Both the position numbers and the translations under genes were made by a program. The notes beneath the pieces are model-generated. The model worked only from the letters and a program-made list of their open reading frames with translations. It did no database searches and was not told where the DNA came from. From NCBI RefSeq assembly GCF_006546825.1, contig NZ_VICC01000006.1, forward strand, positions 248,001 through 312,000: a DNA stretch of 64,000 bases, read 5' to 3'. Shown piece by piece: positions 14,954 through 33,697 of the stretch (position 1 is the stretch's first letter; each line of letters starts with the position of its first letter). The DNA is from Actinomyces oris. GTDB taxonomy: Bacteria > Actinomycetota > Actinomycetes > Actinomycetales > Actinomycetaceae.

Positions 14954-17101
14954 ATGGCAACCGGCTACGACGACGCCGCTTCTGCCTCCGGTGAGTCGGA
15001 TGGCCCCGCACGTGGTTACGGCGTCAGCAGGCAGGGTGAGCTGCTGGAGCTGCCAGAGCCCGGTCAGCGCACAGTGACGGTGGCCGGGGTCCGTGACCCC
15101 GTGGCCAGGGTTCTCCTGGACTCCCCGGTGCCGCACCTCGACCGCACCTTCGACTACTTGGTTCCTGCGGTGATGGCGCAGCAGGCCCTGCCTGGCACCC
15201 GGGTCATGGTTCGCTTCGGTGAGCAGGAGATGCGCGGATGGATCTGGGAGCGAGGGTCCACGACCACCCATATCGGCCGGCTCTCGGCTCTGCGGCGAGT
15301 GGTCTCCGACCTCCCGGTCCTGCCGGAGGGCTCGCGTCGCCTCATCGAGGCCGTTGCCTCCCGCAGCTGCGGGACACGCTCCGACGTCATTCGTCTTGCG
15401 GTTCCGGCAAGGCACGCCACCACGGAGAAGGCTGAGAGGGACAAGGCTCCCCTCGCACTTCCCACCTGGGATCCGCCGTCCTCAAGTGAGCTCAGCTGGC
15501 GGCCTTACGACGGTGGTGAGGAGTTCCTGAGACGGCTGGCTCACGGTGAGGCTCCACGCGCGGTCTGGTCCGCCCTGCCGGCCCAGCTGCCGCCGCCCGA
15601 AGCACGTTCGTCGGACGACGACGGCAGGCGCGTCCCGGTGGTGTCGCCGTGGCAGCTGTGCCTGGCCCGAGCCGTCCAGGCCACCTTGGCGAGCTCTCGC
15701 GGCGCCGTCGTCGTGGTGGCAACGACCCATCAGGCTGAGACCCTGGCAGCCCGGATCAGGCGCGACCTGGAGGGGGAACCGGTGGTGGTGCTCTCAGCCG
15801 AGCACGGTCCTGCGCGCCGTTATCGGGCATTCCTGGCTCTCCTGCTGGGGCGAGCCCGGGTGGTCGTCGGCACCAGGGCGGCGGCCTTCGCCCCGGTGCA
15901 CCGGCTTGGGCTGGCGGTCGTCTGGGACGACGGGGACAACCGGTTGGAAGAGCCTCACGCCCCCTACAGTCATACGCGCACAGTCCTGGCCCTGCGCTCG
16001 ACGTTGGATGGAGCCGGCCTGCTCATCGGTGGATTCAGCCGTTCCGTGGAAGCGCAGTCGCTCGTCGAGCAGGGATGGTGCCAGAGTCTGGCGGCGCCAC
16101 GGCATATTGTGCGCGGTGTTGTCCCTCGTGTGGAGGTTCCTGGCCCGGCAGAGCTGGACCGGGAGGGTGCGTCCGGGGCGGCCCGGCTCCCGTCGCTCGC
16201 CCATCAAGCACTGCGGCGGGCCCTGCAGGACGGACCGGTTCTCATCCAGGTGCCGCGCGCCGGCTACGCGCCGTTGGTGGCCTGCGCCCGGTGCCGCGAA
16301 GCCGCTCAGTGCGCTGTCTGTGGCGGCCCGCTGGCGATGGACCAACGGGGGCGCACCTCCTGCCGTTGGTGCGCTCGTACGGTGGGGCGGTGGAACTGCC
16401 CTGAGTGCGGCGGCCATGGACTGAGGATGGCGACGGTCGGTTCCACGCGTACGGGTGAGGAGCTGGGGCGGGCCTTTCCCGGCGTCCCCGTGGTGGTCTC
16501 AGGAGCCAGGGAGGCCCACGGCGTCATCGACGAGGTAGACGACGCGCCACGTCTCGTGGTGGCCACGCCCGGGGCGGAGCCGGTGGCCGAGGGCGGATAC
16601 CGGGCTGTCCTACTTCTCGACGGCGCCGCACTGTCCTCCCGTCCCGATCTTGGTGCTGCCAGCGAGGCATTGCGCCAGTGGTCCAATGCCGTGGTGCTGG
16701 CGGCGCCGTCGGCCCGCGTTGTCCTTCTGGGAGGCCCGGAGCCGGTGGCGGCACAGGCCCTCGTGCGATGGGACCAGGTGGGATTCGCCCGCAGAGACCT
16801 TCTGGAGCGGGCCGACCTGCACCTACCGCCCGCATGGCGAGTGGCCCGCTTGGACGGGCCGGTACGCGGCGTGGAATCCCTCCTGGCTCAGGCCGAAGCC
16901 GATGGCTTTGAGGTGCTCGGCCCGGTGGCGCCACCGCCCGTTCACGGTCAGGTGCTCCCCGACGCGGCCAGAGCCCTGGTACGCGCTCCGCTGTCACGTG
17001 GCAAGGCGCTTGCCACCATGTTCAGGGTACGACTGCGCGACCGATCAGCCCGCCGCGAGGAGCCGGTTCGTGTTGAGCTCGACCCCACCCGTTTGTGGTG
17101 A
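14954..17101 (+). CDS. priA: Primosomal protein N' (PriA), helicase motifs degenerate
   Basis: 715 residues. It is the PriA replication-restart family by its N-terminal DNA-binding domain (LDSPVPHLDRTFDYLVP, PGTRVMVRFG) and a zinc-binding cysteine cluster at about residues 444-490 (CARC, CAVC, CRWC, CPEC). The ATPase core has lost its signatures: no Walker A GxGKT is present where expected, and the DEEH box is replaced by WDDGD at 324-328. Degenerate PriA without ATPase motifs is known in actinobacteria such as mycobacteria, so the protein may load the primosome without unwinding. It follows metK. GAGGGG at 14944-14949 is the ribosome-binding site. Confidence 0.9.
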   Translation: MATGYDDAASASGESDGPARGYGVSRQGELLELPEPGQRTVTVAGVRDPVARVLLDSPVPHLDRTFDYLVPAVMAQQALPGTRVMVRFGEQEMRGWIWERGSTTTHIGRLSALRRVVSDLPVLPEGSRRLIEAVASRSCGTRSDVIRLAVPARHATTEKAERDKAPLALPTWDPPSSSELSWRPYDGGEEFLRRLAHGEAPRAVWSALPAQLPPPEARSSDDDGRRVPVVSPWQLCLARAVQATLASSRGAVVVVATTHQAETLAARIRRDLEGEPVVVLSAEHGPARRYRAFLALLLGRARVVVGTRAAAFAPVHRLGLAVVWDDGDNRLEEPHAPYSHTRTVLALRSTLDGAGLLIGGFSRSVEAQSLVEQGWCQSLAAPRHIVRGVVPRVEVPGPAELDREGASGAARLPSLAHQALRRALQDGPVLIQVPRAGYAPLVACARCREAAQCAVCGGPLAMDQRGRTSCRWCARTVGRWNCPECGGHGLRMATVGSTRTGEELGRAFPGVPVVVSGAREAHGVIDEVDDAPRLVVATPGAEPVAEGGYRAVLLLDGAALSSRPDLGAASEALRQWSNAVVLAAPSARVVLLGGPEPVAAQALVRWDQVGFARRDLLERADLHLPPAWRVARLDGPVRGVESLLAQAEADGFEVLGPVAPPPVHGQVLPDAARALVRAPLSRGKALATMFRVRLRDRSARREEPVRVELDPTRLW

Positions 17102-17151
17102 GGCAACCGTGAAGATGCGAGGGGGAGAGGCAGACCCGCTCGGACGGCTCA

Positions 17152-17907
17152 CTAGTCAGCAGTGCTACCCGTCACCGCTGTGACCGGCGACGTGGCGGGA
17201 GAGCCATGAGGCGACGCAGCGCTCAGCGTGTCACCAGGCGCCTGGAAGGGTGGCATGCCATGGGCCAGGGAGATGAGATCCGTCAGTAGCCCCGCGGCGG
17301 TGGACTTGACGTTCCACCCCTCACTGAGCGCGGTGACCGCAGCACCATCCACGATAGCGATGACCATCTCCGGTTCGAGCGGGCTGTCGAGCTGACGCAG
17401 CACCCGGCGCAGTGCGGCATTGAGACGTTGCCGCCCCTGACGGTAGGCGTGCTTCACCGGAGATGCCTGGCTGGCTGAGATGAGCTGAAGATAGTGCCCG
17501 AAGTAGCCGCCATGGGCGGGAAGAGTCGCTTGGAGGATGAACCGCACCCGTTGGGGGACGTCCGGAACGCCCTTGAAGGCCTCCACCCGGTCGGCGACGT
17601 GCTCCGCCCGAGACGCCCACAGTCCGATGTTGACCAGACCCGCCTGATGGAGGAGATCCTCCAAGCCGTCGAAGTAGTAGGTTGTCGCAGACAAGGAGCA
17701 CCCGGCTCGCTTGGCGACACTGCGGTGGCTGATCGCGGACGGTCCTGACTCACGGATGATGGCCGCCGCGGCTTCGATGATGGTCTGACGACGGTCCTCA
17801 CCTCGCGGGGTCACTCGCGATTCTGTGCGAGAGCCTGCGGGTACGGACACATCACTACTCGCTGCCTCTCCAGCGTCATGTCCATCAGTACGAGCCATAC
17901 CCATCAT
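17152..17907 (-). CDS. TetR/AcrR-family transcriptional regulator
   Basis: About 251 residues from ATG 17907; ATGs at 17904 and 17898 and a TTG at 17940 are alternatives, with no strong ribosome-binding site to decide. An N-terminal tail of about 45 polar residues precedes the TetR helix-turn-helix (RRQTIIEAAAAIIRESG, SAISHRSVAKRAGCSLSATTYYF). The rest is the helical ligand-binding domain. The ligand is unknown. It lies downstream of the MHS transporter on the same strand and next to the arginine catabolic genes, so it may respond to a guanidino or amino-acid ligand. A 10-bp palindrome just upstream (17918-17927) is a candidate operator. Confidence 0.85.
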   Translation of the reverse strand: MMGMARTDGHDAGEAASSDVSVPAGSRTESRVTPRGEDRRQTIIEAAAAIIRESGPSAISHRSVAKRAGCSLSATTYYFDGLEDLLHQAGLVNIGLWASRAEHVADRVEAFKGVPDVPQRVRFILQATLPAHGGYFGHYLQLISASQASPVKHAYRQGRQRLNAALRRVLRQLDSPLEPEMVIAIVDGAAVTALSEGWNVKSTAAGLLTDLISLAHGMPPFQAPGDTLSAASPHGSPATSPVTAVTGSTAD

Positions 17908-17917
17908 CTTACGACGA

Positions 17918-17927
17918 CAACGCGTTG
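17918..17927. promoter_or_regulatory. Palindrome CAACGCGTTG upstream of the TetR gene
   Basis: Perfect 10-bp palindrome 11 bases before the probable ATG of the TetR regulator. A TetR dimer binding here would repress its own gene. It lies inside the ORF if the upstream TTG is used, which is a further reason to prefer the ATG start. No second copy was found at the other promoters of the island. Confidence 0.4.
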
Positions 17928-18010
17928 AAGTCCGTAACAAGACGGTGATAATGACCTCGTGAGCAAGCAGTGTCTATTCAACTCGTCGTCAACTGCTCTC
18001 AGTGAGTGGG

Positions 18011-19375
18011 TCAGACTTCGGGGTGAGCCTGCTCCTCAGTCAGCTCCGACCCATGAATCGCACGAGAACGGAAGATTGCCACCATGGCGATCAGCGCGAT
18101 CACCGTGAGATAGACCGCAGGTGCCAGGGGGGAACCGGTGACCTTGATGAGCCATGTGACAATGAACGGTGTTGTCCCGCCAAGAAGCGCATTGGCTCCA
18201 TTGAAGGATAGGGCAAATCCCGAGTAGCGCACGTTGGTCGGGAAGGACTCAGCCAGGAAGGTGGCCAGAGTTCCATCATTGGCCGTCAACGCTATAGCGA
18301 AGACAATCTGACACAGGATGACCACGGCGAGCATGCCCGCAGCCTTCGTCATCACAACGAACAACGGAATCGTGAGCACAATGAACGCGACGCAGGCGGC
18401 GATGAGCATCCGACGACGCCCAAAGGAGTCCGACAGGTGCCCCATGAGGAAGATCGCCGCAATGTACACGACCAGCATCACTGAGGTAGCCAGAGTGGAA
18501 GTGTCCTGGGAGAATCCGAGCTCTTCGTGAACATACGTCGGCATGTAGGTGAGAAGCATGTAGAAGGCGACGGCGTTGAGGCAGGAGACTCCAAAGGTAA
18601 TGAGGGTCTCATGCAGGTGGTCTCGCAGCAGCAGCCGCAGCGGTTCGGACCAGCTGGCGGCCTTCTGCTCCTGCGGCATCTCCGCGCGCATCTCCTGGTA
18701 TGCGGGGGAGTCCTCCAAGTGGACCCGGATGTAGCGGCCGATGAGCCCCAGCGGCCCTGCCAAAAGGAAGGGAACTCGCCACCCCCAGGTGTTCATGGCA
18801 TCGTCGCTGAGGACCGAGAACATACCGGTCACCATGAGAGAGCCGGCAAGGAGGCCACAGGCAGTAGAAGCCGGAACCAGCGACGTGTAGATACCGCGCC
18901 GAGCCGGAGGTGCGTACTCGGCAAGGAAGGTTCCGGCACCCGCGTACTCGCCGGAGGCGGAGAATCCCTGAATCATTCGCAGGACAAGGAGGCTCATGGC
19001 GCTTGCCATGCCGATAGTCGCGTACGTGGGAAGGAGACCGATGAAGAATGTCGATCCGGACATGATAAGAATCGACCAGGACAGTGCCCAACGGCGTCCC
19101 CAACGGTCTCCCCACGCCCCCCATACAACGGCGCCGATCGGGCGCAGAATGAAGGACATCGCGAATACTGCATATGTCGAGAGCAGCTGGACTGATTTAT
19201 CTGCCTCTGGGAAGAAGGCGTGACCAATGACGGTGACCAGGTATCCGTACGAGGCGTAGTCGAACCACTCAATGAAGTTTCCGATGAAGCTCGCCTTCGC
19301 TGCACGCCTCAGTGCGAGACTTCGTTCTGAGTCCAGATGATGGTCTTTCGTGCTTCCTGAGTGGGAGGTGTTCAT
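18011..19375 (-). CDS. MFS transporter, metabolite:H+ symporter (ProP/ShiA-like) family
   Basis: 454 residues with 12 predicted membrane segments. Typical MHS-family features are the N-terminal AAKASFIGNFIEWFDYASYGYL, the loop FILRPIGAVVWGAWGDRWGRRWAL, RMIQGFSASGEYAGAGTFLAEYAP and the mid-protein WGWRVPFLLAGPLGLIGRYIR. Members take up osmolytes, dicarboxylates, shikimate or related small polar metabolites with protons. The substrate cannot be read from the sequence. A terminator-like hairpin (19452-19500) separates it from the EamA gene upstream. A GATGAC-N6-GTCATC repeat precedes its start, so it seems to be its own transcription unit, perhaps with the TetR gene. Confidence 0.9.
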   Translation of the reverse strand: MNTSHSGSTKDHHLDSERSLALRRAAKASFIGNFIEWFDYASYGYLVTVIGHAFFPEADKSVQLLSTYAVFAMSFILRPIGAVVWGAWGDRWGRRWALSWSILIMSGSTFFIGLLPTYATIGMASAMSLLVLRMIQGFSASGEYAGAGTFLAEYAPPARRGIYTSLVPASTACGLLAGSLMVTGMFSVLSDDAMNTWGWRVPFLLAGPLGLIGRYIRVHLEDSPAYQEMRAEMPQEQKAASWSEPLRLLLRDHLHETLITFGVSCLNAVAFYMLLTYMPTYVHEELGFSQDTSTLATSVMLVVYIAAIFLMGHLSDSFGRRRMLIAACVAFIVLTIPLFVVMTKAAGMLAVVILCQIVFAIALTANDGTLATFLAESFPTNVRYSGFALSFNGANALLGGTTPFIVTWLIKVTGSPLAPAVYLTVIALIAMVAIFRSRAIHGSELTEEQAHPEV

Positions 19376-19406
19376 AGCCTATGGCTCCAGCTCGGTGGAT
19401 GTCGAC

Positions 19407-19424
19407 GATGACGTAATGGTCATC
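19407..19424. promoter_or_regulatory. Inverted repeat GATGAC-N6-GTCATC upstream of the MHS transporter
   Basis: Perfect 6-bp half-sites with a 6-bp spacer, 32 bases before the transporter ATG, in the position of an operator. It does not match the palindrome before the TetR gene nor those before arcA, so the binding regulator is unknown. Confidence 0.4.
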
Positions 19425-19451
19425 CCAAGGTGAGACGTTGATGACTCTACA

Positions 19452-19500
19452 TGTGATCCTGTCTGCCCGCTGGGAGTTGGCGCAGGCAGACAGGATCACA
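19452..19500 (-). terminator. Strong hairpin after the EamA transporter gene
   Basis: A perfect 16-bp inverted repeat (TGTGATCCTGTCTGCC at 19452-19467 with its complement at 19485-19500) and a 17-base loop, beginning six bases after the stop of the EamA gene. There is no U-tract on the minus strand, which is common for actinobacterial terminators. It should end the transcript running leftward through the EamA gene. Confidence 0.75.
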
Positions 19501-19506
19501 GGAGGA

Positions 19507-20520
19507 TCAGGACGTGGAGGCGCGTGATTTCCGGGCGATGGCATCCACGATGATCGGGGCCAACCCACCGCCGACAATGAGCAGTCCGCCGATCATCCCC
19601 ATGGGGGTGAGCTTCTCGCCCCAGACGAGCAGGCCGCACAGAATGGCGACCGGACACTCCCAGTAGGAGATCGTCGAGTACTCAACGGCGGGCAGGTTGC
19701 GCCCTGCAACGACCAGGAATCCCAGCGCGAAGAGGCCGCAGACGAGGAAGAGGGCCACTGCCCACATCCAGTTGGTGGCGGTGAAGGTGGAAATGCCGTG
19801 CCAAGGACGCAAGACGATGGACATGACCAGCGTTGCGCAGGCGGCCCAGAAGAAGTTCCACACACCGCGGACGATCGAATCGACATCCTTGCGGTACCCG
19901 TAGAAGAACAGTGCCAGACCGTAGAATATGCCGGACAACAGACCTAAAAGATCCCCTAGGCTCTTCTGAGGGAACTCTGGAGTTGTGGCCGACAGATCCA
20001 GTCCGAAAGTCAGACTCCCGTTCTTGAAGTCGATGATTCCAATGGTCAGCAGCATTCCTATGAACACGAGCGACAGGAAGATTCCGGAGAGCACGCTGAT
20101 CTTCTCTTTGCGGAAAATGCGTGCGAGCAGTGCGCAGAACAAGGGTCCCGTGTAGATGAGGAAGACGGCATTGGAAATGGTCGTCATCAATGTCGAGGAG
20201 ATGTAGCACCCCAGGGACAGGCCGATGCTGACCCCTCCCAGGATCACAGTGGTGCTCAGGCGGGTGCTCTTGAACAGCCCGGCCTTCCCGGTGAAGATGA
20301 GGATAAGAATGAACCCGAGTAGTCCGACGCTCATGCGGCCGAAGGCCAGGAACGAACCGATGACGGACTTGTCGGCGTGAGCGAGGCCGGCGGTCGTACC
20401 ACGACTGATGGTGCCGACAAGGCCCATCCCGGTGGCGGAGAGAAGCATGGCGATGGCGCCCAGCTTCTTGTTCATGACGTACTCTGTGACAGAGGATTCA
20501 GCGGACGATGTCTGTGACAT
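19507..20520 (-). CDS. EamA/DMT-superfamily transporter
   Basis: About 337 residues from ATG 20520, with AGGAG 11 bases upstream. A start further upstream would add about 22 residues without hydrophobic character. It shows ten hydrophobic segments in the duplicated five-plus-five EamA pattern, with glycine-rich turns such as SATGMGLVGTISRG, the mid-protein IYTGPLFCALLARIF and the C-terminal YWECPVAILCGLLVWGEKLTPMGMIGGLLIVGG. DMT proteins usually export amino acids or small metabolites. It lies downstream of the amidinotransferase gene on the same strand, with a GC-rich hairpin between. A role in exporting an amine or guanidino product, or importing the substrate, is inference. Confidence 0.85.
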   Translation of the reverse strand: MSQTSSAESSVTEYVMNKKLGAIAMLLSATGMGLVGTISRGTTAGLAHADKSVIGSFLAFGRMSVGLLGFILILIFTGKAGLFKSTRLSTTVILGGVSIGLSLGCYISSTLMTTISNAVFLIYTGPLFCALLARIFRKEKISVLSGIFLSLVFIGMLLTIGIIDFKNGSLTFGLDLSATTPEFPQKSLGDLLGLLSGIFYGLALFFYGYRKDVDSIVRGVWNFFWAACATLVMSIVLRPWHGISTFTATNWMWAVALFLVCGLFALGFLVVAGRNLPAVEYSTISYWECPVAILCGLLVWGEKLTPMGMIGGLLIVGGGLAPIIVDAIARKSRASTS

Positions 20521-20656
20521 AGCAGTTGTGTCTCCTGAGTTCTCCCCCGGCGTGCGCGACGGACCGGCATCCTTGCCAGGTCTCACGCGGTCAGGAGGGC
20601 CTTCCCAGTCCTATGGAGCGGCCGCTGACCGCGCTGCGAAGAGCAGAGCCGGGTAA

Positions 20657-20700
20657 GGTGCGGGGCGGCAGCCCGGTCCCATGAGCCGCCGCCCCGCACC
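20657..20700 (-). terminator. GC-rich hairpin after the amidinotransferase gene
   Basis: GGTGCGGGGCGGC (20657-20669) pairs perfectly with GCCGCCCCGCACC (20688-20700), starting eight bases past the amidinotransferase stop. It could terminate or attenuate transcription into the EamA gene. The right arm has a repeated GCC, so the pairing can slip by one unit. Confidence 0.7.
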
Positions 20701-20707
20701 CTTGAGA

Positions 20708-21835
20708 TCAGACCAGAGTCGGGTCAGCGACCTGGTTGGGGAAGTAGTCCTCGCAGCCACCCTCACGGTAGACATCGGCCGTTGCGCAGTGCAGACCACC
20801 GCCGAAGGCGTAGGCGTCACGGAAGGGAACCGGGATGACGTTCATGCCGAGCTTGTCCATCTGCTCCATCTGGTGGACCTCACTGGCCTCGACACACACG
20901 GTCTTGTGGTCGATGACCAGGCAGTTCATGGACAGCCAGACGGAGGAGTAGCACAGCGGCGGCGGAACCTCGTGGGCCGGGGGAGCCGCGTCGACGATCT
21001 GCCAGTCGTTGGCCTCGAAGATCTTGCGCTGCTCCTCGGGCAGGCGGCGGTGCGGGTTGTTGATGATGAGCCCGGGCCGCAGCGGCACGAAGGTGGCGTC
21101 GATGTGGATCGGGTAGGGGTCGCCGGGGAAGTTCACCGCGTGCACCCGCAGGTCCGGGTAGTAGCGCTTGAACCACTCCATCGCCTTGCGGTTGGTGGTC
21201 AGACCGTGCTGGATGAACAGGTCCTTACCCACGCGCATGACGTCGGCGGCGTCCCACATCGGCTCGAACTCGGTAGTCACGAAGTCCTTGGCGGCGGTGC
21301 GCTCAAGGCGCTCCTCCAGGGAGATCCGCTCGTCGTAGTAGTTGTGCTTGTAGGACTTGTCCGTCAGCCGCGGACGAGGGGCCTGAGTCCACTTGAACTC
21401 GGGGTCCTCCTCGAAGTACTGGTTCATGAGGGGCCAGTAGGCGAGGTATTCGAAGTAGCGGCAGCGGAACGAGTTGGCCGACGCCATGATCTCGTCACCG
21501 ATGGTGAGCAGGATGTCACGCGGGGGCATCTGGGTGAAGCCGGACTCCGTGCGGAAGTCAGGCGTCTGGATGGCCTGGTTCCACTGCAGCGGCGTGGGGC
21601 GGTCCACCTGGACGCCCAGACCCTCGAGGATCTTGACGTAGTTGTCGAGCTGCTCGTTGGCGGCCTCAACGGTGGCGGTGGGGCGGGGGCCCCACATTCC
21701 GCGCATCTCGGAGTCGATCGGCACCTTCTCAGAGGTGGCGGGCTCCTCGGGAGGAATAACCGAGAAGTCGGCGCGTCCGACGATGACACGCTTGAGAGGG
21801 TCGAAGTCGTTCCAAGAGTTGACGATCTTCGTCAT
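20708..21835 (-). CDS. Glycine-amidinotransferase-family protein (AGAT/GATM-like)
   Basis: 375 residues from ATG 21835 (AAGGAG ten bases upstream; the longer frame has no homology). It aligns along its length with vertebrate L-arginine:glycine amidinotransferase as I recall it: WNDFDPLKRVIVGRA at the start, TPDFRTESG, MPPRDILLTIGDEI, FVTTEFEPMWDAADVM, YPIHIDATFVPLRPG and AFGGGLHCATADV. The expected catalytic residues are present: Asp195, His244 and Cys350. The family moves the amidino group of arginine to an amine such as glycine, giving ornithine and a guanidino compound, and the reaction is reversible. The acceptor here is unknown. It lies 209 bp downstream of arcC with its own promoter-like region. 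The pairing with an ADI operon is the notable point. Confidence 0.88.
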   Translation of the reverse strand: MTKIVNSWNDFDPLKRVIVGRADFSVIPPEEPATSEKVPIDSEMRGMWGPRPTATVEAANEQLDNYVKILEGLGVQVDRPTPLQWNQAIQTPDFRTESGFTQMPPRDILLTIGDEIMASANSFRCRYFEYLAYWPLMNQYFEEDPEFKWTQAPRPRLTDKSYKHNYYDERISLEERLERTAAKDFVTTEFEPMWDAADVMRVGKDLFIQHGLTTNRKAMEWFKRYYPDLRVHAVNFPGDPYPIHIDATFVPLRPGLIINNPHRRLPEEQRKIFEANDWQIVDAAPPAHEVPPPLCYSSVWLSMNCLVIDHKTVCVEASEVHQMEQMDKLGMNVIPVPFRDAYAFGGGLHCATADVYREGGCEDYFPNQVADPTLV

Positions 21836-21975
21836 GAGTAAGTCACTCCTTTGTGCTCGATGTGTGATGAGTGAATGAAGACAAGTGATGTGTCTATGGC
21901 TCAACATTGTCATTCTACTCTGAACGAACTGCAAATGTAGCCGTAGGAGTATCTGAGTATAAGAATGATTGCTGA

Positions 21976-21988
21976 ACCGTGGCACGGT
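21976..21988. promoter_or_regulatory. Palindrome ACCGTGGCACGGT between arcC and the amidinotransferase gene
   Basis: A 13-bp palindrome (6-bp arms around one base) lies upstream, on the minus strand, of a TATACT -10-like box at about 21957-21962. It could be a regulator site for the amidinotransferase gene or a short hairpin at the end of the arc transcript. The 209-bp gap is clearly more AT-rich than its flanks. Confidence 0.4.
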
Positions 21989-22044
21989 CATTGTGGGTTA
22001 AGGGTGTTCACCACCTCCTTGAAAGACCGATGCCGTTGCGCCGG

Positions 22045-23025
22045 TCAGGCCCTGCGGATGCGCGTGTCGAGCTGCTCGGGAATCGGGGGATGGATATCGT
22101 CCGGCCCCCCGTAGTTTCCCCCGGGAGTCACGATAGTCCCTGCATGGCCCTCAATGATGGAAACGGCGTCCTCGAGGCGCCCGATTGCCGCCATGTCGCC
22201 AGTCAGCTCAACAAATCGGCACACCGCCTCAACCTTTGGTCCCATGGAACCACTGGGAAGTCCCATGGACCGCAGCTCTGCCGGCGTCGCCCTCGGAACC
22301 TGTTTCTGGTTCTCGGTCCCGAAGTCCCGAAACACTCCATCAACGTCCGTGAGGATAAGAAGCGCATCGGCCTCCAGGGCCTCGGCCATGACCGACGCCG
22401 TGAGGTCCTTGTCGATGACGGCTTCAATACCCTTGAGCTTGCCCTCCTCGCTGCGGACGACGGGCACACCGCCGCCCCCGGAGCAGACGACGATCGCGCC
22501 GGCATCCAGCAGTGTGCGCACTAGACGGGTCTCGATGACGCGCTGCGGCATGGGGGAGCCGACGACGCGGCGGTAGTGCTCGCCGTCGGGCTTGACCACC
22601 CAGCCCCGCTCCTCAGCCAGCTTCTCGGCCTCCTCCTTGGTGTACACCTCACCGACGAACTTGGTGGGGTTGGAGAAGGCCGGGTCACCGGCCATCACCA
22701 GGGTCTGATTGACCATGGCGGCCACGTGGCGACCGGGCAGGGCGTTCTGCATGGCCTGCAGCAGCCAGTATCCGATCATGCCCTGCGTCTGGGCACCGAG
22801 GGTATCGAAGGGGTAGGGCTCGGAGAGGCGCTCGTCATTGGCGGACTGCAGGGCCAGGACACCCACCTGGGGGCCGTTCCCGTGAGTCAGGACCAGCTCG
22901 TGCTTCTCCGCCAGCTTGGCCAGCTCGTGGGCCGCGATCTCGACATTGCGGATCTGGGTACTGGCGTCGGGCTTCTCCCCCCGACGCAGCAGGGCGTTTC
23001 CTCCGAGGGCGACGACGATTCTCAC
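22045..23025 (-). CDS. arcC: Carbamate kinase
   Basis: 326 residues. It makes ATP from carbamoyl phosphate and ADP, the energy-yielding end of the arginine deiminase pathway. It has the amino-acid-kinase fold signatures RIVVALGGNALLRRGE at the start, LVLTHGNGPQVGVLALQ, and VVCSGGGGVPVV with ADLLI-type nucleotide-binding residues (ADALLILTDVDGV). It starts at GTG 23025, three bases after the arcB stop, so arcB and arcC are surely cotranscribed. It is the last arc gene before the 209-bp gap that precedes the amidinotransferase gene. Confidence 0.96.
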   Translation of the reverse strand: MRIVVALGGNALLRRGEKPDASTQIRNVEIAAHELAKLAEKHELVLTHGNGPQVGVLALQSANDERLSEPYPFDTLGAQTQGMIGYWLLQAMQNALPGRHVAAMVNQTLVMAGDPAFSNPTKFVGEVYTKEEAEKLAEERGWVVKPDGEHYRRVVGSPMPQRVIETRLVRTLLDAGAIVVCSGGGGVPVVRSEEGKLKGIEAVIDKDLTASVMAEALEADALLILTDVDGVFRDFGTENQKQVPRATPAELRSMGLPSGSMGPKVEAVCRFVELTGDMAAIGRLEDAVSIIEGHAGTIVTPGGNYGGPDDIHPPIPEQLDTRIRRA

Positions 23026-23028
23026 AAG

Positions 23029-24036
23029 TCAGTCCCACTGTCCCAGGGTCGCGACCATCACGGCCTTGATGGTGTGCATACGGTTCTCGGCCTGGTCGAA
23101 GGCGACGTTGCGCTCGGTCTCGAAGACGTCGTCGGTCACCTCCAGGCCCTCCATTCCGGTCTTGGCGAAGATGTCCTCACCGACCGTGGTGTTGCGGTCA
23201 TGGAAGGCCGGCAGGCAGTGGAGGAACTTCACGTCCGGGTTGCCGGTGGCCTCCACCAGCTGGGCGTTGACCTGGTAGGGCGCGAGCAGGGCGATGCGCT
23301 GATCCCAGACCTCCTTGGGCTCACCCATGGAGACCCACACGTCGGTGTAGAGGAAGTCGACGCCCTTGACACCCTGGGCGGTGTCGTCGGTGATGAGGAT
23401 GCGGGCGCCACTGTCCTTGGCCAGCTTCTCGGCCTGAGCCACCACCTCGGGAGAGGTCTGCAGCTCCTTGGGGGCCACCATCCGCACGTCCATTCCCATG
23501 AGGGCCGCCGAGATGAGCAGTGAGTTGGCAACGTTGTTGCGCGCGTCGCCCAGGTAGGCGAAGGAGATCTGCTCGATCGGCTTGTCGGCGTGCTCCAGCA
23601 TGGTCAGCTGGTCGGCGAGCATCTGGGTGGGGTGCCACTCGTCCGTCAGTCCATTCCACACCGGGACGCCGGAGAGCTCAGCCAGAGCCTCGACGTGCTC
23701 CTGCTTCTTGCCGCGGAACTCGATGCCGTCATAGAAGCGGCCCAGCACCCGAGCGGTGTCCGCCACGGACTCCTTGTGACCCATCTGGGATCCGGAGGGG
23801 TCGAGGTAGGTGACTTGTGCGCCCTGGTCGTAGGCGGCGACCTCGAAAGAGCAGCGGGTGCGCGTCGAGGTCTTCTCAAAAATGAGAGCGATGTTCTTAC
23901 CGGTCAGCCGCTTCACCTCGCGGCCGGCCTTCTTGTCCGCCTTGAGCTGGGCGGCCAGCTCGAGCAGGGAGCTCCACTCCTCGGCCGTGAAGTCGAGCTC
24001 TTTGAGGAAACTGCGGTTGTGCAGGGGGTGGGACAT
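23029..24036 (-). CDS. arcB: Ornithine carbamoyltransferase, catabolic context
   Basis: 335 residues. It has the carbamoyl-phosphate motif [31 protein letters not shown], and the ornithine-binding HCLPAFHD near the C-terminus. In the ADI pathway it runs towards phosphorolysis of citrulline, giving ornithine and carbamoyl phosphate. The length and the tail ([11 protein letters not shown]) fit the ArcB/ArgF group, and sequence alone does not separate anabolic from catabolic forms; the position between arcA and arcC does. AAGGA lies a few bases before the ATG. Confidence 0.96.
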
Positions 24037-24101
24037 GAGGATTCCTTCGTCCAGTGTGGTGATGTACTGACAGTTCTTCTTATGTGTCGGCCAGGGCCGA
24101 C

Positions 24102-25325
24102 TCAGGCAAGCGGGTCCCGCAGGGTCGGGCAGCTCATGCAGTGTGGACCACCGCGACCGCGACCGACTTCCGAGCCGGGAATGGTCAGGACCTCGATGCC
24201 ATGGGAAGTAAGGTACTCGTTCGTGTTGACGTTACGTTCATAGGTAACGATGACACCGGGGGCGATGGCCAGGGAGTTGGAGCCGTCGTCCCACTGCTCA
24301 CGGGCGGCGGCCATCGAGTCCTGGGGCGTGATGAGAACGTTGAGCCCGTCGACGCCCAGGGCCTGGGCGATGACGCGGTACATGTCCTCGGGGGCGTTGC
24401 GTGTGACGCTGATCTGCTTGTCGCCGTCCGGGCGCAGCGTAAGCGTCGGCAGCTTCCCCAGGCCGCCGTAGATGGTGAACGTGCCGACGTCGACCATGGT
24501 CATCACCGTGTCCAGGTGCATCTGGGCGCGTGTCCGGTTCATCTCGACGGCGATGATCCGATTCACCGTGCCTCCGGCGAACAGTCGGCTGGCGAGCCTC
24601 TCGATGCCCTGCGAGGTGGTGCGCTCGGAGACTCCGACCAGAACGGCGCCGTTGCCGATGATCTGGACGTCTCCACCCTCCACGGTGGCGGGGCCGGCCT
24701 GCGTGCCCTCGGACCACACGGGGAAGTCGGAGCCGGCGAAGAGAGGGTGCCAACGGTAGATCGCCTCGTAGTTGATGGTCTCGCGCTGCCGGGCCGGCAT
24801 CATCATCGAGTTGATGGAGACGCCGTTGTAGATCCAGCAGGACGTGTCGCGGGTGAAGAGGTGGTTGGGCAACGGCGGCAGAAGCAGGTCGTCGTCGTCC
24901 ATGGAGGCCAGCACGAGCGAGTCCGGGCATGAGGTGCGCTCGAGCAGCTCGGCCTTCGTGATCCCAGCAACGAGCACCTCGGCCAACTCGGCCCCGGACA
25001 GCCCCTGGGCCAGGGCGCGCAGCGGATCGGCGGCGCTGGGGCCGTTGGTGTTCTCGTTGACGACTCGGTCCAGGACGTATTGCCTGGCTTCGGGCACCTC
25101 GAGGGTCTGGGCCAGCAGGTCGCTGAGGTAGAGCACCTCGATGTCGCGGTCAGTCAGAACTCGTGCGAACTGGTCGTGCTCCTCCTGGGCCCGCTCGAGC
25201 CACAGGACATCATCGAACAGGAGGTGGTCCTTGTTCTGCGGAGTGAGTCGGAGCATCTCGTTGCCGGGCCGGTGCAGGATGACCTGGCGAAGCTTCCCGA
25301 TTTCGGAATCTACGGAGAATTCCAT
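24102..25325 (-). CDS. arcA: Arginine deiminase
   Basis: 407 residues. It hydrolyses arginine to citrulline and ammonia and belongs to the same pentein superfamily as the amidinotransferase downstream. The signatures are [65 protein letters not shown] and the C-terminal catalytic cysteine (Cys396) in GPHCMSCP. It is the first gene of arcABC on the minus strand, 65 bases ahead of arcB. The enzyme provides ATP and ammonia (acid protection) in oral bacteria. The two tandem palindromes upstream (25400-25433) are probable control sites. No arcD antiporter gene accompanies it. Confidence 0.97.
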
Positions 25326-25677
25326 GACTCCCTCTCTGACACAGCACTGTGTCGCCGATATGGATCATGACGCGCATCACGCGCTCAGACTGTCAAAGTG
25401 GTACGCCTGTACCGGATTGGTACGAGCGTACCAGAGTTCCTGAGGCTTGGAAACTCCCTGGTAGGAAGAAGTTCTGAGCGCACCGATTGAGCGGTCGCGA
25501 TCGGTACGTGACGTTGCTTTCATCAGGTGTTTTGCCTCTTCGGGCGCTGCTGTGGAGCGCCCCTGAACCGCCGATGCGGCGGACCCGCTTCAGTAGGTGA
25601 CTCACAAACGTCAAGGGTGATCCGTCCCGGGTGGAGCCACCCGAGTCCCGAGGTGACGGAGTGGGAGGATGGCGGAC
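25326..25677. other. Divergent intergenic region between arcA and the HAD gene
   Basis: About 350 bp without a gene. On the minus strand it holds a TTGACA element (25391-25396) that could be the arcA -35, although the best -10-like sequence (CATGAT) is 21 bases away, longer than usual. Immediately upstream are the two GGTAC-N4-GTACC palindromes. The remaining part, 25440-25650, shows no repeat or hairpin that I can support. I searched for ArgR boxes and guanidine riboswitch motifs by eye and saw none. Confidence 0.5.
25400..25433. promoter_or_regulatory. Tandem palindromes GGTAC-N4-GTACC upstream of arcA
   Basis: GGTAC-GCCT-GTACC at 25400-25413 and TGGTAC-GAGC-GTACCA at 25418-25433 are two perfect inverted repeats with the same arms and 4-base spacers. 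Their centres are 19 bp apart, close to two helical turns. They sit just upstream of a TTGACA element on the arcA side. The arrangement suggests two dimers binding side by side on one face of the DNA. Which regulator binds is unknown. Confidence 0.75.
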
Positions 25678-26346
25678 GTGAACGCATCGTCCTCCTTGAC
25701 GACCTCCAGCCCCGCAGGCGCCGTCAGTGCCGTCGTCCTCGACTACGGCAACGTCCTGTACGCGTGGGAGCCCATGGCGGCCGTCGCCGGATACGTCTCG
25801 GCCGACGACTGGGAGGAGTTCGTGGTCGACGGAGGGTTCCTGACCTGGAACGAACGACTCGACCGGGGAGAGCCCTTCGAACAGGTGCTCGCCGACTACA
25901 CCCGGGCCCACCCCGGCCGCCCCGACTGGGCGGAGATCCTCTCCTTGTACCGTCAGCGCTTCGCCGAATCGCTGACGGGTCCCGTTCCCGGCATGGCCGC
26001 TCTGCTCGACGACCTCCTTGGGAGGGGCGTGGCGCTGTACGGGCTGACCAACTTCGACGCCGCGCCCTTCGAGCGGGCCAGGCTCCTGGTTCCCCAGCTC
26101 GAAAGCTTTGTGGGCATCGTGGTCTCCGGGCGCGAGCACCTGGCCAAACCGGATGCCGCCATCTTCGACCTTCTTCTGAGTCGTTACCGTCTCCAGGCCT
26201 CCCGCACCCTGTTCATCGATGACTCGGTGGTCAACATCGAGGCGGCTGGCCACCTGGGAATGCGCACCCACCACTTCACCGGTGTGGGACGGCTGCGCTC
26301 CGAGCTCATCGCACTGGGCCTGCTCCCCACGCCGGACCGGCATTGA
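25678..26346 (+). CDS. HAD-family hydrolase (YihX-like)
   Basis: 222 residues from GTG 25678. The ATG at 25669 abuts GGGAGG (25663-25668), too close to use, whereas the GTG lies nine bases away. It is a HAD subfamily IA phosphatase: motif I is VVLDYGNVL with Asp as nucleophile and Gly in place of the second Asp, as in YihX-type glucose-1-phosphate phosphatases; motif II GLTNFD; motif III Lys in HLAKPDAAIF; motif IV FIDDSVVN. The helical cap is short. The substrate is not predictable. It is encoded divergently from arcA and directly before fmt, so it may be part of the island or of the housekeeping run. Confidence 0.88.
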   Translation: MNASSSLTTSSPAGAVSAVVLDYGNVLYAWEPMAAVAGYVSADDWEEFVVDGGFLTWNERLDRGEPFEQVLADYTRAHPGRPDWAEILSLYRQRFAESLTGPVPGMAALLDDLLGRGVALYGLTNFDAAPFERARLLVPQLESFVGIVVSGREHLAKPDAAIFDLLLSRYRLQASRTLFIDDSVVNIEAAGHLGMRTHHFTGVGRLRSELIALGLLPTPDRH

Positions 26347-26372
26347 ACCCCGCACTGGGTGACGTCGCCCCT

Positions 26373-26378
26373 TAGACT
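26373..26378 (+). promoter_or_regulatory. Leaderless-type -10 box (TAGACT) of fmt
   Basis: TAGACT lies seven bases before ATG 26386, and no Shine-Dalgarno sequence is present, so the fmt message is probably leaderless. This also decides against the GTG at 26359, which lies upstream of the box. Confidence 0.6.
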
Positions 26379-26385
26379 CAGCCGC

Positions 26386-27360
26386 ATGCGTGTGCTTTTC
26401 GCCGGAACCCCCGAGGCGGCCCTGCCCACCCTGGAGGCCCTCATCGCCAGTGAGCACGACGTCGTCGGGGTCCTCACCCGTGCTGACGCTCGCAAAGGGC
26501 GCGGCCGGACGCTGCACCCCTCGCCGGTGGCGGCCGTGGCTCGCGATGCGGGGCTCGATGTACGCACTCCGGCCACCCTCAAGGGGGAGCAGGCCGACGA
26601 CGTGCACGCGTGGGTCGGCGCTCTGAAGGCTGACGTCGCCGTCGTGGTCGCCTACGGTCGCCTGGTGCCGGCCGATCTGCTGGACGTCCCTGAGCACGGC
26701 TGGCTGAATCTGCACTTCTCTCTGCTGCCCGCGTGGCGCGGAGCCGCCCCGGTCCAGCGGGCGGTCATCGCCGGTGACGAGGTCACCGGGGCCTGCGTGT
26801 TCCGCCTCGAGGAGGGGCTCGACACCGGTCCCGTCTATGGCCGACTCACGGAGGCCATCAGCGGTCGGGACACCAGCGGGGATCTGCTCGAGCGGCTGGC
26901 GCGCGCCGGGGCGCCCCTGGTCCTCGATGTGCTGCGCCGGGTTGAGGATGGCAGCGTGCGTCCGGAGCCGCAGGAGGACGCGCTGGCCACGCTGGCCCCC
27001 GTGCTCTCGTCGGCCGACGGCCTGATCCGCTGGGAGGATCCGGCGCTTGCCATTGACCGTCGGATCCGGGGCGTCACTCCGGCGCCGGGTGCCCACACCA
27101 CGTACCAGGGGTCCCGGTTCCGTCTGGGCCCGGTCACCCTGGTCCCGGAGGTCACCGATCTGTTGCCCGGCCAGCTGCGCGCCACCAAGCGCGAGGTCCT
27201 CGTGGGAGCCGGGGGCTGCGCCGTCCGTCTGGGGCAGGTCGCGCCCGCCGGGCGCAGCTGGATGCCTGCCGACGCCTGGGCCAGGGGAGCGCGTCCGGAG
27301 GTGGGGGCCGTCCTGGGGACCTCGTGCGTGACGAACGACGACGGTGAGGCGATGAGCTGA
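26386..27360 (+). CDS. fmt: Methionyl-tRNA formyltransferase
   Basis: 324 residues from ATG 26386, with product start MRVLFAGTPEAALPTLEAL as expected; an in-frame GTG nine codons upstream lacks support. It formylates initiator Met-tRNA with 10-formyl-tetrahydrofolate. The catalytic region LNLHFSLLPAWRGAAPVQRAVIAGD and EEGLDTGPVY are intact, followed by the C-terminal tRNA-binding domain (IRGVTPAPGAHTTY). It overlaps rsmB by one base (TGATG). In many actinobacteria fmt follows priA directly, while here it is separated by the arginine island. Confidence 0.96.
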   Translation: MRVLFAGTPEAALPTLEALIASEHDVVGVLTRADARKGRGRTLHPSPVAAVARDAGLDVRTPATLKGEQADDVHAWVGALKADVAVVVAYGRLVPADLLDVPEHGWLNLHFSLLPAWRGAAPVQRAVIAGDEVTGACVFRLEEGLDTGPVYGRLTEAISGRDTSGDLLERLARAGAPLVLDVLRRVEDGSVRPEPQEDALATLAPVLSSADGLIRWEDPALAIDRRIRGVTPAPGAHTTYQGSRFRLGPVTLVPEVTDLLPGQLRATKREVLVGAGGCAVRLGQVAPAGRSWMPADAWARGARPEVGAVLGTSCVTNDDGEAMS

Positions 27361-31941: not shown

Positions 31942-33573
31942 GTGACCACCGCCCCCATCACCGGCCCCGGCGCATCTGCCGAGACACCGGCCCAAGGAAC
32001 CACTATGGCCGACTCGGAGGCCACCACCGCCTTCCGCCAGCGCATCGCCCGCATCGACCGGGAGGCCGAGGAGCACGCCGCCGCCCGTCAGCACGCCAAG
32101 GGCAAGCGCACCGCCCGCGAGCGCATCAACGACCTGCTCGACGACTCCACCTTCCTGGAGATCGGCCGCTACTCCGGTTCAGGTGCCGGCGACAAGGCCC
32201 GCCCCTCGGGCGTCGTCACCGGCTTCGGCCAGATCGACGGCCGCCAGGTGGCCGTCTACTCCCAGGACTTCTCCGTCTCCGGCGGCGCCCTGGGCACCAT
32301 CGAGGGGGACAAGATCGTCCGCCTCCTGGACGACGCCCTGCGCCTGCGCATCCCCGTCATCGGACTCATCGACTCCGGCGGCGCCAAGATCCAGGAGGGC
32401 GTGGGAGCTCTGCGCCAGTACGGGCGCATCTTCAACCGCACCTGCGCCGCCTCCGGACTGGTCCCGCAGATCAGCGTCATCCTGGGACCCTGCGCCGGCG
32501 GCGCCGTCTACAGCCCGGCCCTGACCGACTTCGTCATCGCCACCCGCCAGGCCTCCCACATGTTCGTCACCGGCCCCGACGTCGTACGCGCCACAACCGG
32601 TGAGCAGATCAGCGCCGAGGACCTCGGCGGTGCACAGATCCACGGTTCCGTCTCCGGCGTCGTCCACTACGTGGCCGACGACGAGGAGGACGCGTTGGGG
32701 CAGGTCCGCACCTTCCTGGCCTACCTGCCCTCCTCATCCGAGGTCAGCGCCCCCCTCTACGCCTACGACGACGCTGACGCCCAGGCCGACGCTGAGGCCG
32801 CCCGCAGTGTCGGCGAGATCGTCCCGGCCTCCACCCGGCAGGCCTACGACGTCGTCGAGGTGGTCTCGGCCGTCGTCGACCACGGCGAGCTCGTCCAGGT
32901 CCAGGAGGAGTTCGCACCCAACGTCGTGGTCGGCTTCGCCTGCTTCGAGGGCCACCCGGTGGGGATCGTCGCCAACCAGCCGCTGGTGGACGCCGGCACC
33001 CTGGACGTCGACGCCTCTGAGAAGCTCGCCCGCTTCGTGCGCTTCTGCGACGCCTTCGGGCTGCCGGTGGTCACCTTCGTCGACGTCCCCGGCTACCGTC
33101 CCGGAGCCGAGCAGGAGCACGCCGGCATCATCCGCCGCGGAGCCAAGGTCATCAACGCCTACGCCACCGCCACTGTGCCGCTGGTGACGATCGTTTTGCG
33201 CAAGGCCTATGGCGGCGCCTACATCGTCATGGGCTCCAAGGCCATCGGCGCCGACCTCAACTTCTGCTGGCCGGGAGCCGAGATCGCCGTCCTGGGCGCC
33301 GCCGGCGCCGTCGGCATCATCCACCGCCGCGACCTGGCCAAGGTCCGTGACGAGCAGGGGGAGGAGGCCGCCACCGCCGAGCACGAGCGGCTCGTGGCCG
33401 AGTACACCGACGCCGTCATCAACCCGGACAAGGCCGTGGCCATCGGTGAGATCGACGCCGTCATCGCCCCTGAGGACACCCGCAACGTCATCGTCGACTC
33501 ACTGGCCGCGCTGCGCGCCAAGAACGACGCCCGCCCCGAGTCCCCCAAGAAGCATGACAACATCCCCCTCTGA
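31942..33573 (+). CDS. accD: Acyl-CoA carboxylase beta subunit (carboxyltransferase)
   Basis: 543 residues from GTG 31942, with GAGGAGG about eight bases upstream and only three bases after the alpha-subunit stop. It has the crotonase-like fold in two halves: ARERINDLLDDSTFLEIGRY, the CoA-binding oxyanion region DSGGAKIQEGVGALRQYGRIF, GPCAGGAVYSPALTDF, and in the second half FVDVPGYRPGAEQEHAGIIRRGAK and LRKAYGGAYIVMGSKAIGAD. It transfers carboxyl groups from carboxybiotin to acetyl- or propionyl-CoA. Specificity depends on a residue I cannot place without alignment. The context with fas favours malonyl-CoA formation. Confidence 0.94.
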   Translation: MTTAPITGPGASAETPAQGTTMADSEATTAFRQRIARIDREAEEHAAARQHAKGKRTARERINDLLDDSTFLEIGRYSGSGAGDKARPSGVVTGFGQIDGRQVAVYSQDFSVSGGALGTIEGDKIVRLLDDALRLRIPVIGLIDSGGAKIQEGVGALRQYGRIFNRTCAASGLVPQISVILGPCAGGAVYSPALTDFVIATRQASHMFVTGPDVVRATTGEQISAEDLGGAQIHGSVSGVVHYVADDEEDALGQVRTFLAYLPSSSEVSAPLYAYDDADAQADAEAARSVGEIVPASTRQAYDVVEVVSAVVDHGELVQVQEEFAPNVVVGFACFEGHPVGIVANQPLVDAGTLDVDASEKLARFVRFCDAFGLPVVTFVDVPGYRPGAEQEHAGIIRRGAKVINAYATATVPLVTIVLRKAYGGAYIVMGSKAIGADLNFCWPGAEIAVLGAAGAVGIIHRRDLAKVRDEQGEEAATAEHERLVAEYTDAVINPDKAVAIGEIDAVIAPEDTRNVIVDSLAALRAKNDARPESPKKHDNIPL

Positions 33574-33697
33574 CCCCGGCTCCGAGACCCACTCGCCTCC
33601 GCCTCCGCCGTATTCCCCCTCTTCACCCGACCCCAGTTCAGGTAACCGTTCCGAGACCACCGACCACGCCGTCGCAACACCGAAGGACACCACTACC

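Follow-up and report, generated by a model that had tools for sequence, protein, structure and literature searches.

The reactions of ArcA, ArcB and ArcC, the enzymes of the arginine deiminase pathway, are established chemistry of their families. A survey of arc clusters, in the part of its text that was accessible, listed ones having arcD and/or arcE (PMC5300872), and for creatinine the accessible part of a review gives three routes, none with an amidinotransferase (PMC10215027). Here, a gene cluster of another composition is described from Actinomyces oris. It lies in a stretch of 64,000 nucleotides, called the window (assembly GCF_006546825.1, contig NZ_VICC01000006.1, positions 248,001–312,000), the minus strand of which carries the whole of it: arcA, arcB, arcC, a gene for an amidinotransferase of the GATM (L-arginine:glycine amidinotransferase) type, and genes for an EamA transporter, an MHS transporter and a TetR regulator. 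On balance, the sequence evidence favors a catabolic route that draws energy and nitrogen from creatine-type guanidino acids.

In the proposed route, creatine would be imported by the MHS protein, a conserved linked transporter, and the amidinotransferase, working in the arginine-forming direction as its gene context suggests, would convert creatine and L-ornithine to sarcosine and L-arginine. ArcA would then turn arginine into citrulline and ammonia, ArcB would make carbamoyl phosphate and regenerate ornithine, ArcC would produce ATP, CO2 and ammonia, and sarcosine would presumably be exported by EamA. The net reaction would be creatine + ADP + Pi → sarcosine + 2 NH3 + CO2 + ATP, with one ATP per creatine because of the known ArcABC reactions. 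Because ornithine cycles, an arginine/ornithine antiporter would not be required. The creatininase of relatives, often accompanied by a BCCT or NCS1 transporter, would extend the route to creatinine. Gene context makes the catabolic direction as a whole highly plausible and speaks with more reserve for creatine as the main donor, creatine being a more likely donor than guanidinoacetate. The full proposal is that a creatine:ornithine amidinotransferase and an ornithine cycle yield substrate-level ATP from host waste, with no arginine import, in bacteria of the mouth, urinary tract and gut, which would add one more microbial pathway for degrading creatine and creatinine; we lean toward it slightly. 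The same slight leaning applies to the genera in which the route would operate, namely Actinomyces, Actinobaculum, Mobiluncus, Gordonibacter, Slackia, Adlercreutzia and Rubneribacter. The features of the cluster are as follows.

24102–25325, minus strand: arcA, arginine deiminase; NF002381, 531 bits (cut-off 414)
23029–24036, minus strand: arcB, ornithine carbamoyltransferase; TIGR00658, 422 bits (cut-off 281)
22045–23025, minus strand: arcC, carbamate kinase; TIGR00746, 375 bits (cut-off 358)
21836–22044, minus strand: gap of 209 bases between arcC and the amidinotransferase gene, possible second promoter
20708–21835, minus strand: GATM-type amidinotransferase of 375 amino acids, proposed creatine:ornithine amidinotransferase; human GATM, 270 bits
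19507–20586, minus strand: EamA/DMT transporter, proposed exporter or exchanger of the amine product; Pfam EamA, 69 bits
18011–19375, minus strand: MHS-family symporter, proposed importer of creatine or another open-chain guanidino acid; TIGR00883, 374 bits (cut-off 443)
17152–17940, minus strand: TetR regulator, proposed local regulator; Pfam TetR_N, 24.4 bits (cut-off 24)

These coordinates and family matches bear out the cluster described in a first-pass annotation of the window. From arcA to the TetR gene, the gaps between neighbors are 65, 3, 209, 121, 131 and 70 bases. The arcA product also scores 485 bits with TIGR01078, slightly below the cut-off of 489, and 412 bits with the Pfam arginine deiminase model. 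The start of the amidinotransferase is the ATG at 21835, the list of open reading frames having given an upstream start at 21991. The 209-base gap is alignable in seven rows of the A. oris/naeslundii group, with little alignable in the other eight rows compared, and holds one weak promoter-like match at 21985–21956.

The amidinotransferase is shared at 100% identity with A. oris P6N and S64C. It matches no Pfam or NCBIfam model at an E-value of 0.001; human GATM aligns with residues 57–417 of the open reading frame at 270 bits, which is homology over the full length. In this alignment, Asp195, His244 and Cys350 correspond to human D254, H303 and C407, so that the catalytic triad is intact, as previously claimed. 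R263 and S298, whose human counterparts bind the amino-acid substrate, are likewise retained; human N300 and M302 are replaced by Y241 and I243. The human pair, Asn300/Met302, and Phe245/Ser247 of CyrA have been linked to substrate specificity in the part of a report that was available (PMC3684758). Neither pair, characteristic of glycine-specific AGAT, is present in the window enzyme, whose acceptor-pocket residues are thus unlike those of both human and CyrA-type enzymes; homologs at 40–43% identity keep the Phe/Ser pair of CyrA, unlike the Tyr241/Ile243 clade. Because the specificity positions are Tyr241/Ile243, the acceptor is probably not glycine alone, and sarcosine would fit. Furthermore, D107, D195, Y241, I243, H244, D246, R263, S297, S298 and C350 are invariant in 161 amidinotransferases, 40 with a creatininase in the locus and 121 without one (as labeled by tblastn). 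Since these ten catalytic and pocket positions are invariant with or without creatininase, one substrate type seems to be shared by both sorts of loci. Amidinotransferase copies sharing one locus are 97–100% identical. The predicted structure of the enzyme, with a pLDDT of 36 from an alignment of 12 rows, is too poor for use.

The distribution of the enzyme was followed in a survey of 200 genomes of the family, where 67 have a match and 66 are counted as carriers after exclusion of one genome (G049, 26.7 bits). Full-length matches within these genomes are 81–100% identical, and a sample of 394 genomes at class level gave, besides the window's own, matches at 31–43% identity. Among the best 80 of 126 relatives, the clade is also found in Eggerthellaceae (Gordonibacter, Slackia, Adlercreutzia, Rubneribacter and Raoultibacter), in Georgenia, Austwickia and Cutibacterium namnetense, and in one betaproteobacterium, Craterilacuibacter. 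Removal of exact DNA duplicates reduced 150 loci to 112 distinct ones, 85 with 5 kb on both sides and 100 with 5 kb downstream; the listing of gene order misses mis-framed genes in some rows. All three arc genes lie on the same strand near the amidinotransferase gene in 49 of the 85 loci, one or two of them in 7, and none in 29. EamA is present in 76 of the 85 and MHS in 74, and a TetR cluster was found in 95 of 154 amidinotransferase loci, duplicates included. A chance assembly is therefore not what the cluster represents. The pairing of arcABC with the amidinotransferase, which the first-pass annotation had stressed, is kept in relatives, and it needs the qualification that arc genes are nearby in only 56 of the 85 loci, arcA being otherwise elsewhere in the genome. 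Because EamA and MHS are so regularly present while 29 loci lack arc genes nearby, the constant core is the amidinotransferase with the transporters.

At the level of genomes, the association with arginine deiminase is stricter. Every surveyed carrier has arcA: 66 of 66 family carriers, compared with 67 of 134 non-carriers, 8 of 8 carriers of the Eggerthellaceae group, and 20 of 20 carriers reached via named loci, 14 of which had not previously been counted. Carbamate kinase is over the cut-off in 60 of the 66 carriers and in 13 of the 134 others; at 270 bits or more, it is found in all 66 and in 39 of the 134.

Conservation within the cluster is highest for the amidinotransferase, whose protein identity outside the A. 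oris group is 83–97%, compared with 39–66% for arcA. Purifying selection was preferred to recent horizontal transfer as the cause of this high identity, because the four-fold sites of the amidinotransferase show much lower identity than the protein (0.23–0.62 outside the A. oris group). The tree of the enzyme does not track the families cleanly, and its support is low, 18 of 91 inner branches being starred.

The donor is indicated by a further neighbor. When neighbor genes of the 154 loci were clustered, a same-strand gene in 30 of them, usually between EamA and MHS, proved to be a creatininase. It is linked to the amidinotransferase in 28 distinct loci of Actinomycetaceae, other actinobacteria and Eggerthellaceae, on the same strand in all 28 and at 2.0–3.6 kb from middle to middle. 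All 28 products score 300–340 bits with the equivalog model TIGR04448 (cut-off 235), and one matches the creatininase of P. putida at 287 bits. Creatininase is over the cut-off in 22 of the 200 family genomes; of these 22, 19 are carriers of the amidinotransferase, and 19 of the 24 creatininase genes are beside it. On a quick 108-row tree with few well-supported branches (18 of 91 starred), creatininase shows no fewer than 18 gains or losses. A BCCT or NCS1 transporter accompanies it in 16 of 27 loci, compared with 0 of 73 loci without creatininase, and a linked BCCT is 51% identical to that of a creatininase–creatinase–sarcosine oxidase locus.

In the 28 loci that combine creatininase with the amidinotransferase, neither creatinase (one query, E-value 1e-8) nor soxB, the gene for sarcosine oxidase beta, has a match. 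Of the five creatininase genes not beside an amidinotransferase, four were examined, the fifth being on another contig of a carrier (G045), and three of the four loci have creatinase and soxB. One of these creatinases matches creatine amidinohydrolase at 567 bits, and the other two are 86–89% identical to it. Because creatininase is linked to the amidinotransferase in 28 loci, with creatinase in none of them versus three of four loci without the amidinotransferase, this gene context suggests that the amidinotransferase fills the step from creatine to sarcosine in place of creatinase.

Two further cases show other arrangements. One genome (G133) holds both routes on separate contigs, the classical creatininase–creatinase–sarcosine oxidase set (L253) and the amidinotransferase–creatininase set (L067). 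The fourth of the creatininase loci examined away from the amidinotransferase (L256:8374–11807) has creatininase, an MHS gene whose product is 48% identical to the window's MHS protein, and an amidohydrolase of the cytosine deaminase family, without amidinotransferase or creatinase; it is perhaps another creatinine route.

The same catabolic direction might be taken with guanidinoacetate or another guanidino acid as donor and glycine as product, the creatininase then opening the cyclic form. This would simply run the known GATM reaction backward; it agrees with the retained R263 and S298, and the window's architecture with MHS only suits any zwitterionic guanidino acid. However, the linked genes score as true creatininases and creatinase is missing there, both of which favor creatine, and the specificity residues Phe/Ser of CyrA, as given in the accessible part of the report (PMC3684758), are Tyr/Ile here, unlike in the CyrA-like homologs at 40–43% identity. 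Guanidinoacetate as the donor is therefore considered unlikely.

The enzyme might instead run toward synthesis, using arginine to produce ornithine and a guanidino compound destined for export, for osmotic protection or for a natural product. Characterized GATM members known to us are biosynthetic, and EamA could export the product. Synthesis would compete with ArcA for arginine, yet arcA is found in all carriers of the family survey, and it leaves no obvious role for creatininase. The making of guanidinoacetate from arginine and glycine, which the first-pass annotation named as the main alternative, thus ranks low, and the synthetic direction in general is improbable. The annotation's preferred direction, in which an imported guanidino compound gives its amidino group to ornithine for degradation by ArcABC, is supported by the pairing kept in relatives and by the absence of an over-cut-off ArcD from the window's own genome, and further by creatininase linked to the amidinotransferase in loci that lack creatinase, which points away from synthesis.

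Urine is rich in creatinine and contains creatine. The locus of Actinobaculum massiliense (L038/L202) has the same gene order as the window, and in the accessible part of a proteome study of 2018 each of its four enzymes (01647–01650, the amidinotransferase and ArcABC) exceeded its level in culture more than 8-fold in the biofilm of urinary catheters, with average abundances of 0.0196 for the amidinotransferase, 0.0042 for ArcB, 0.0034 for ArcC and 0.0021 for ArcA (PMC6314084). The authors placed the four enzymes in a polyketide pathway, a proposal which counts for the synthetic direction (PMC6314084, accessible part). No polyketide synthase is, however, among the ten neighbor families run against Pfam, the remaining families not having been screened.

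The cluster itself has no ArcD or ArcE. In the window's own genome, there is no match to the DcuC/ArcE family and none over the cut-off to TIGR03810 or TIGR00905 (ArcD), and weak amino-acid-permease matches are present; ArcE was looked for in this genome only. A comparison of listed coordinates by eye shows each of the 30 ArcD genes of the survey either on another contig than the amidinotransferase or more than 100 kb away from it, and puts at least 13 of them within 0.4 kb of an arcA distant from the amidinotransferase. In eight of those 13 genomes, the arcA beside ArcD is an additional copy.

A conventional arginine deiminase operon, with EamA or MHS in place of ArcD and an unrelated amidinotransferase inserted, would also account for a complete and canonical ArcABC. 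DMT proteins are able to move amino acids, and ArcD is common among carriers (24 of 66). However, EamA and MHS go with the amidinotransferase: of the 29 loci with no arc gene close by, 23 retain EamA, and none of the 39 arcA loci away from the amidinotransferase has relatives of the window's EamA or MHS. The amidinotransferase being, moreover, the best conserved gene of the cluster, such an insertion is very improbable.

Several observations weigh against the creatine route. ArcD-type TIGR00905 is over the cut-off in 26 of the 200 genomes, 24 of which are carriers, so that ArcD occurs elsewhere in the genome in 24 of the 66 carriers and in none of the other 42. In five genomes (G050, G074, G112, G187 and G195), the arcA beside ArcD is the sole arcA match, and therefore arginine exchange is possible there. 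The earlier statement that no antiporter is needed thus agrees with the window's own genome, which has no ArcD over the cut-off, and does not hold generally. The arcA match of one carrier (G082) is weak (E-value 1.8e-6), that of Cutibacterium namnetense (G952:C1:45394–46607) is split across two overlapping reading frames, so that arginine deiminase may be broken in this carrier, and the genome counts share ancestry and are hence not independent. No creatininase is present in the window genome, and 73 of 100 loci have none nearby; for these, creatine rests on the enzyme being the same. Mammalian GATM is not known to accept sarcosine. SoxB is over the cut-off in 1 of 40 carriers tested, out of 66. 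In the catheter data, the effects of urine and of biofilm are inseparable according to the authors (PMC6314084, accessible part).

Part of this bears on the form that the route would take. As the window genome lacks creatininase, an open-chain compound would be the substrate there, and the MHS-only version of the window presumably imports such a compound; creatinase was not found in the window, the rest of the genome not having been searched for it. As soxB is so rare among the carriers tested, sarcosine would be exported or otherwise used, and sarcosine oxidase was rejected as the next step for most of them.

Additional observations concern single loci. In two of the genomes with a sole arcA beside ArcD, arcB and arcC are with the amidinotransferase (L081 in G187, L087 in G112) and the arcA is elsewhere. 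The window's own genome has a second, divergent arcA (G000:C4:315780–317057; locus L110, from 9281), 44% identical to that of the window, with no relatives of the window's arcB, arcC, EamA or MHS in the surrounding 20 kb. In Craterilacuibacter (Neisseriaceae), the only carrier found outside Actinomycetota, the order is amidinotransferase, EamA, MHS and a second copy of the enzyme (L247:9001–14113), and arcA is elsewhere in the genome. A conserved protein of about 190 amino acids, without a Pfam or NCBIfam match, is encoded beside EamA in 17 amidinotransferase loci, mostly of Eggerthellaceae.

L225:11585–12154: conserved protein of about 190 amino acids
L166:7415–7975: conserved protein of about 190 amino acids; 15 other loci have it as well

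The predicted structure of a 189-residue member from Eggerthellaceae (pLDDT 51.5, alignment of 13 rows) is too poor for use. No guanidine riboswitch was found in the window at 16500–27000 or in six relatives. An Rfam scan of that part of the window gave nothing relevant, its sole match, to a viral leader, being far under the cut-off, and that of the six relatives gave two tRNAs and one match to an L31 ribosomal-protein leader. The latter, a Coriobacteria L31 leader match directly upstream of the amidinotransferase (L166:10523–10554, minus strand), was taken for chance, being barely over the cut-off (36 versus 33 bits, E-value 0.1). Elsewhere in the window, an open reading frame of 3313 amino acids at 33209–43150 resembles a type I fatty acid synthase and is preceded by genes resembling biotin carboxylase and carboxyltransferase, all named by eye.

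No description of an amidinotransferase feeding arginine deiminase, or of a creatininase–amidinotransferase pair, was found in the open-access literature, most subscription papers and bioRxiv being outside the search. The component families are known, and the route itself would be new. To our knowledge, it would, if true, be the first catabolic use of a GATM-type enzyme. Creatinine is the substance by which kidney function is judged clinically, and creatine is widely taken as a supplement. If the proposal is true, it provides a gene to look for, adds an ATP-yielding route alongside known ones giving urea or N-methylhydantoin, and explains why some arginine deiminase operons carry no antiporter.

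Among described systems, the agmatine deiminase pathway of Eggerthella lenta resembles the proposed route in leading from a guanidino compound to ATP through carbamate kinase, but agmatine is deiminated directly, and words starting with amidino- or guanidino- are absent from the accessible text (PMC10234575). In Corynebacterium glutamicum ATCC 14067 (creT–crnA), transporter and creatininase likewise occur together, and growth on creatine depends on an MFS gene next to the creatininase; the model given there, in the part available, differs in running via N-methylhydantoin and N-carbamoylsarcosine with no amidinotransferase step (PMC8864220). The classical creatinine pathway of creatininase, creatinase and sarcosine oxidase shares with the present loci the creatininase of the 28 loci, a related BCCT and the same proposed product, sarcosine. 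Its creatinase yields urea and no ATP, whereas here creatinase is absent and the amidinotransferase with ArcABC is proposed instead. With the GATM/AGAT family (CyrA/AoaA, StrB1, SxtG, HsvA and AmtA), the window enzyme has in common homology over the full length and the catalytic Asp-His-Cys, and it differs from them as a distinct clade with Tyr241/Ile243, linked to catabolic genes. Finally, the cluster has arcA, arcB and arcC complete and adjacent as in the arginine deiminase pathway, but is without ArcD/ArcE and, as proposed, would be fed by transamidination.

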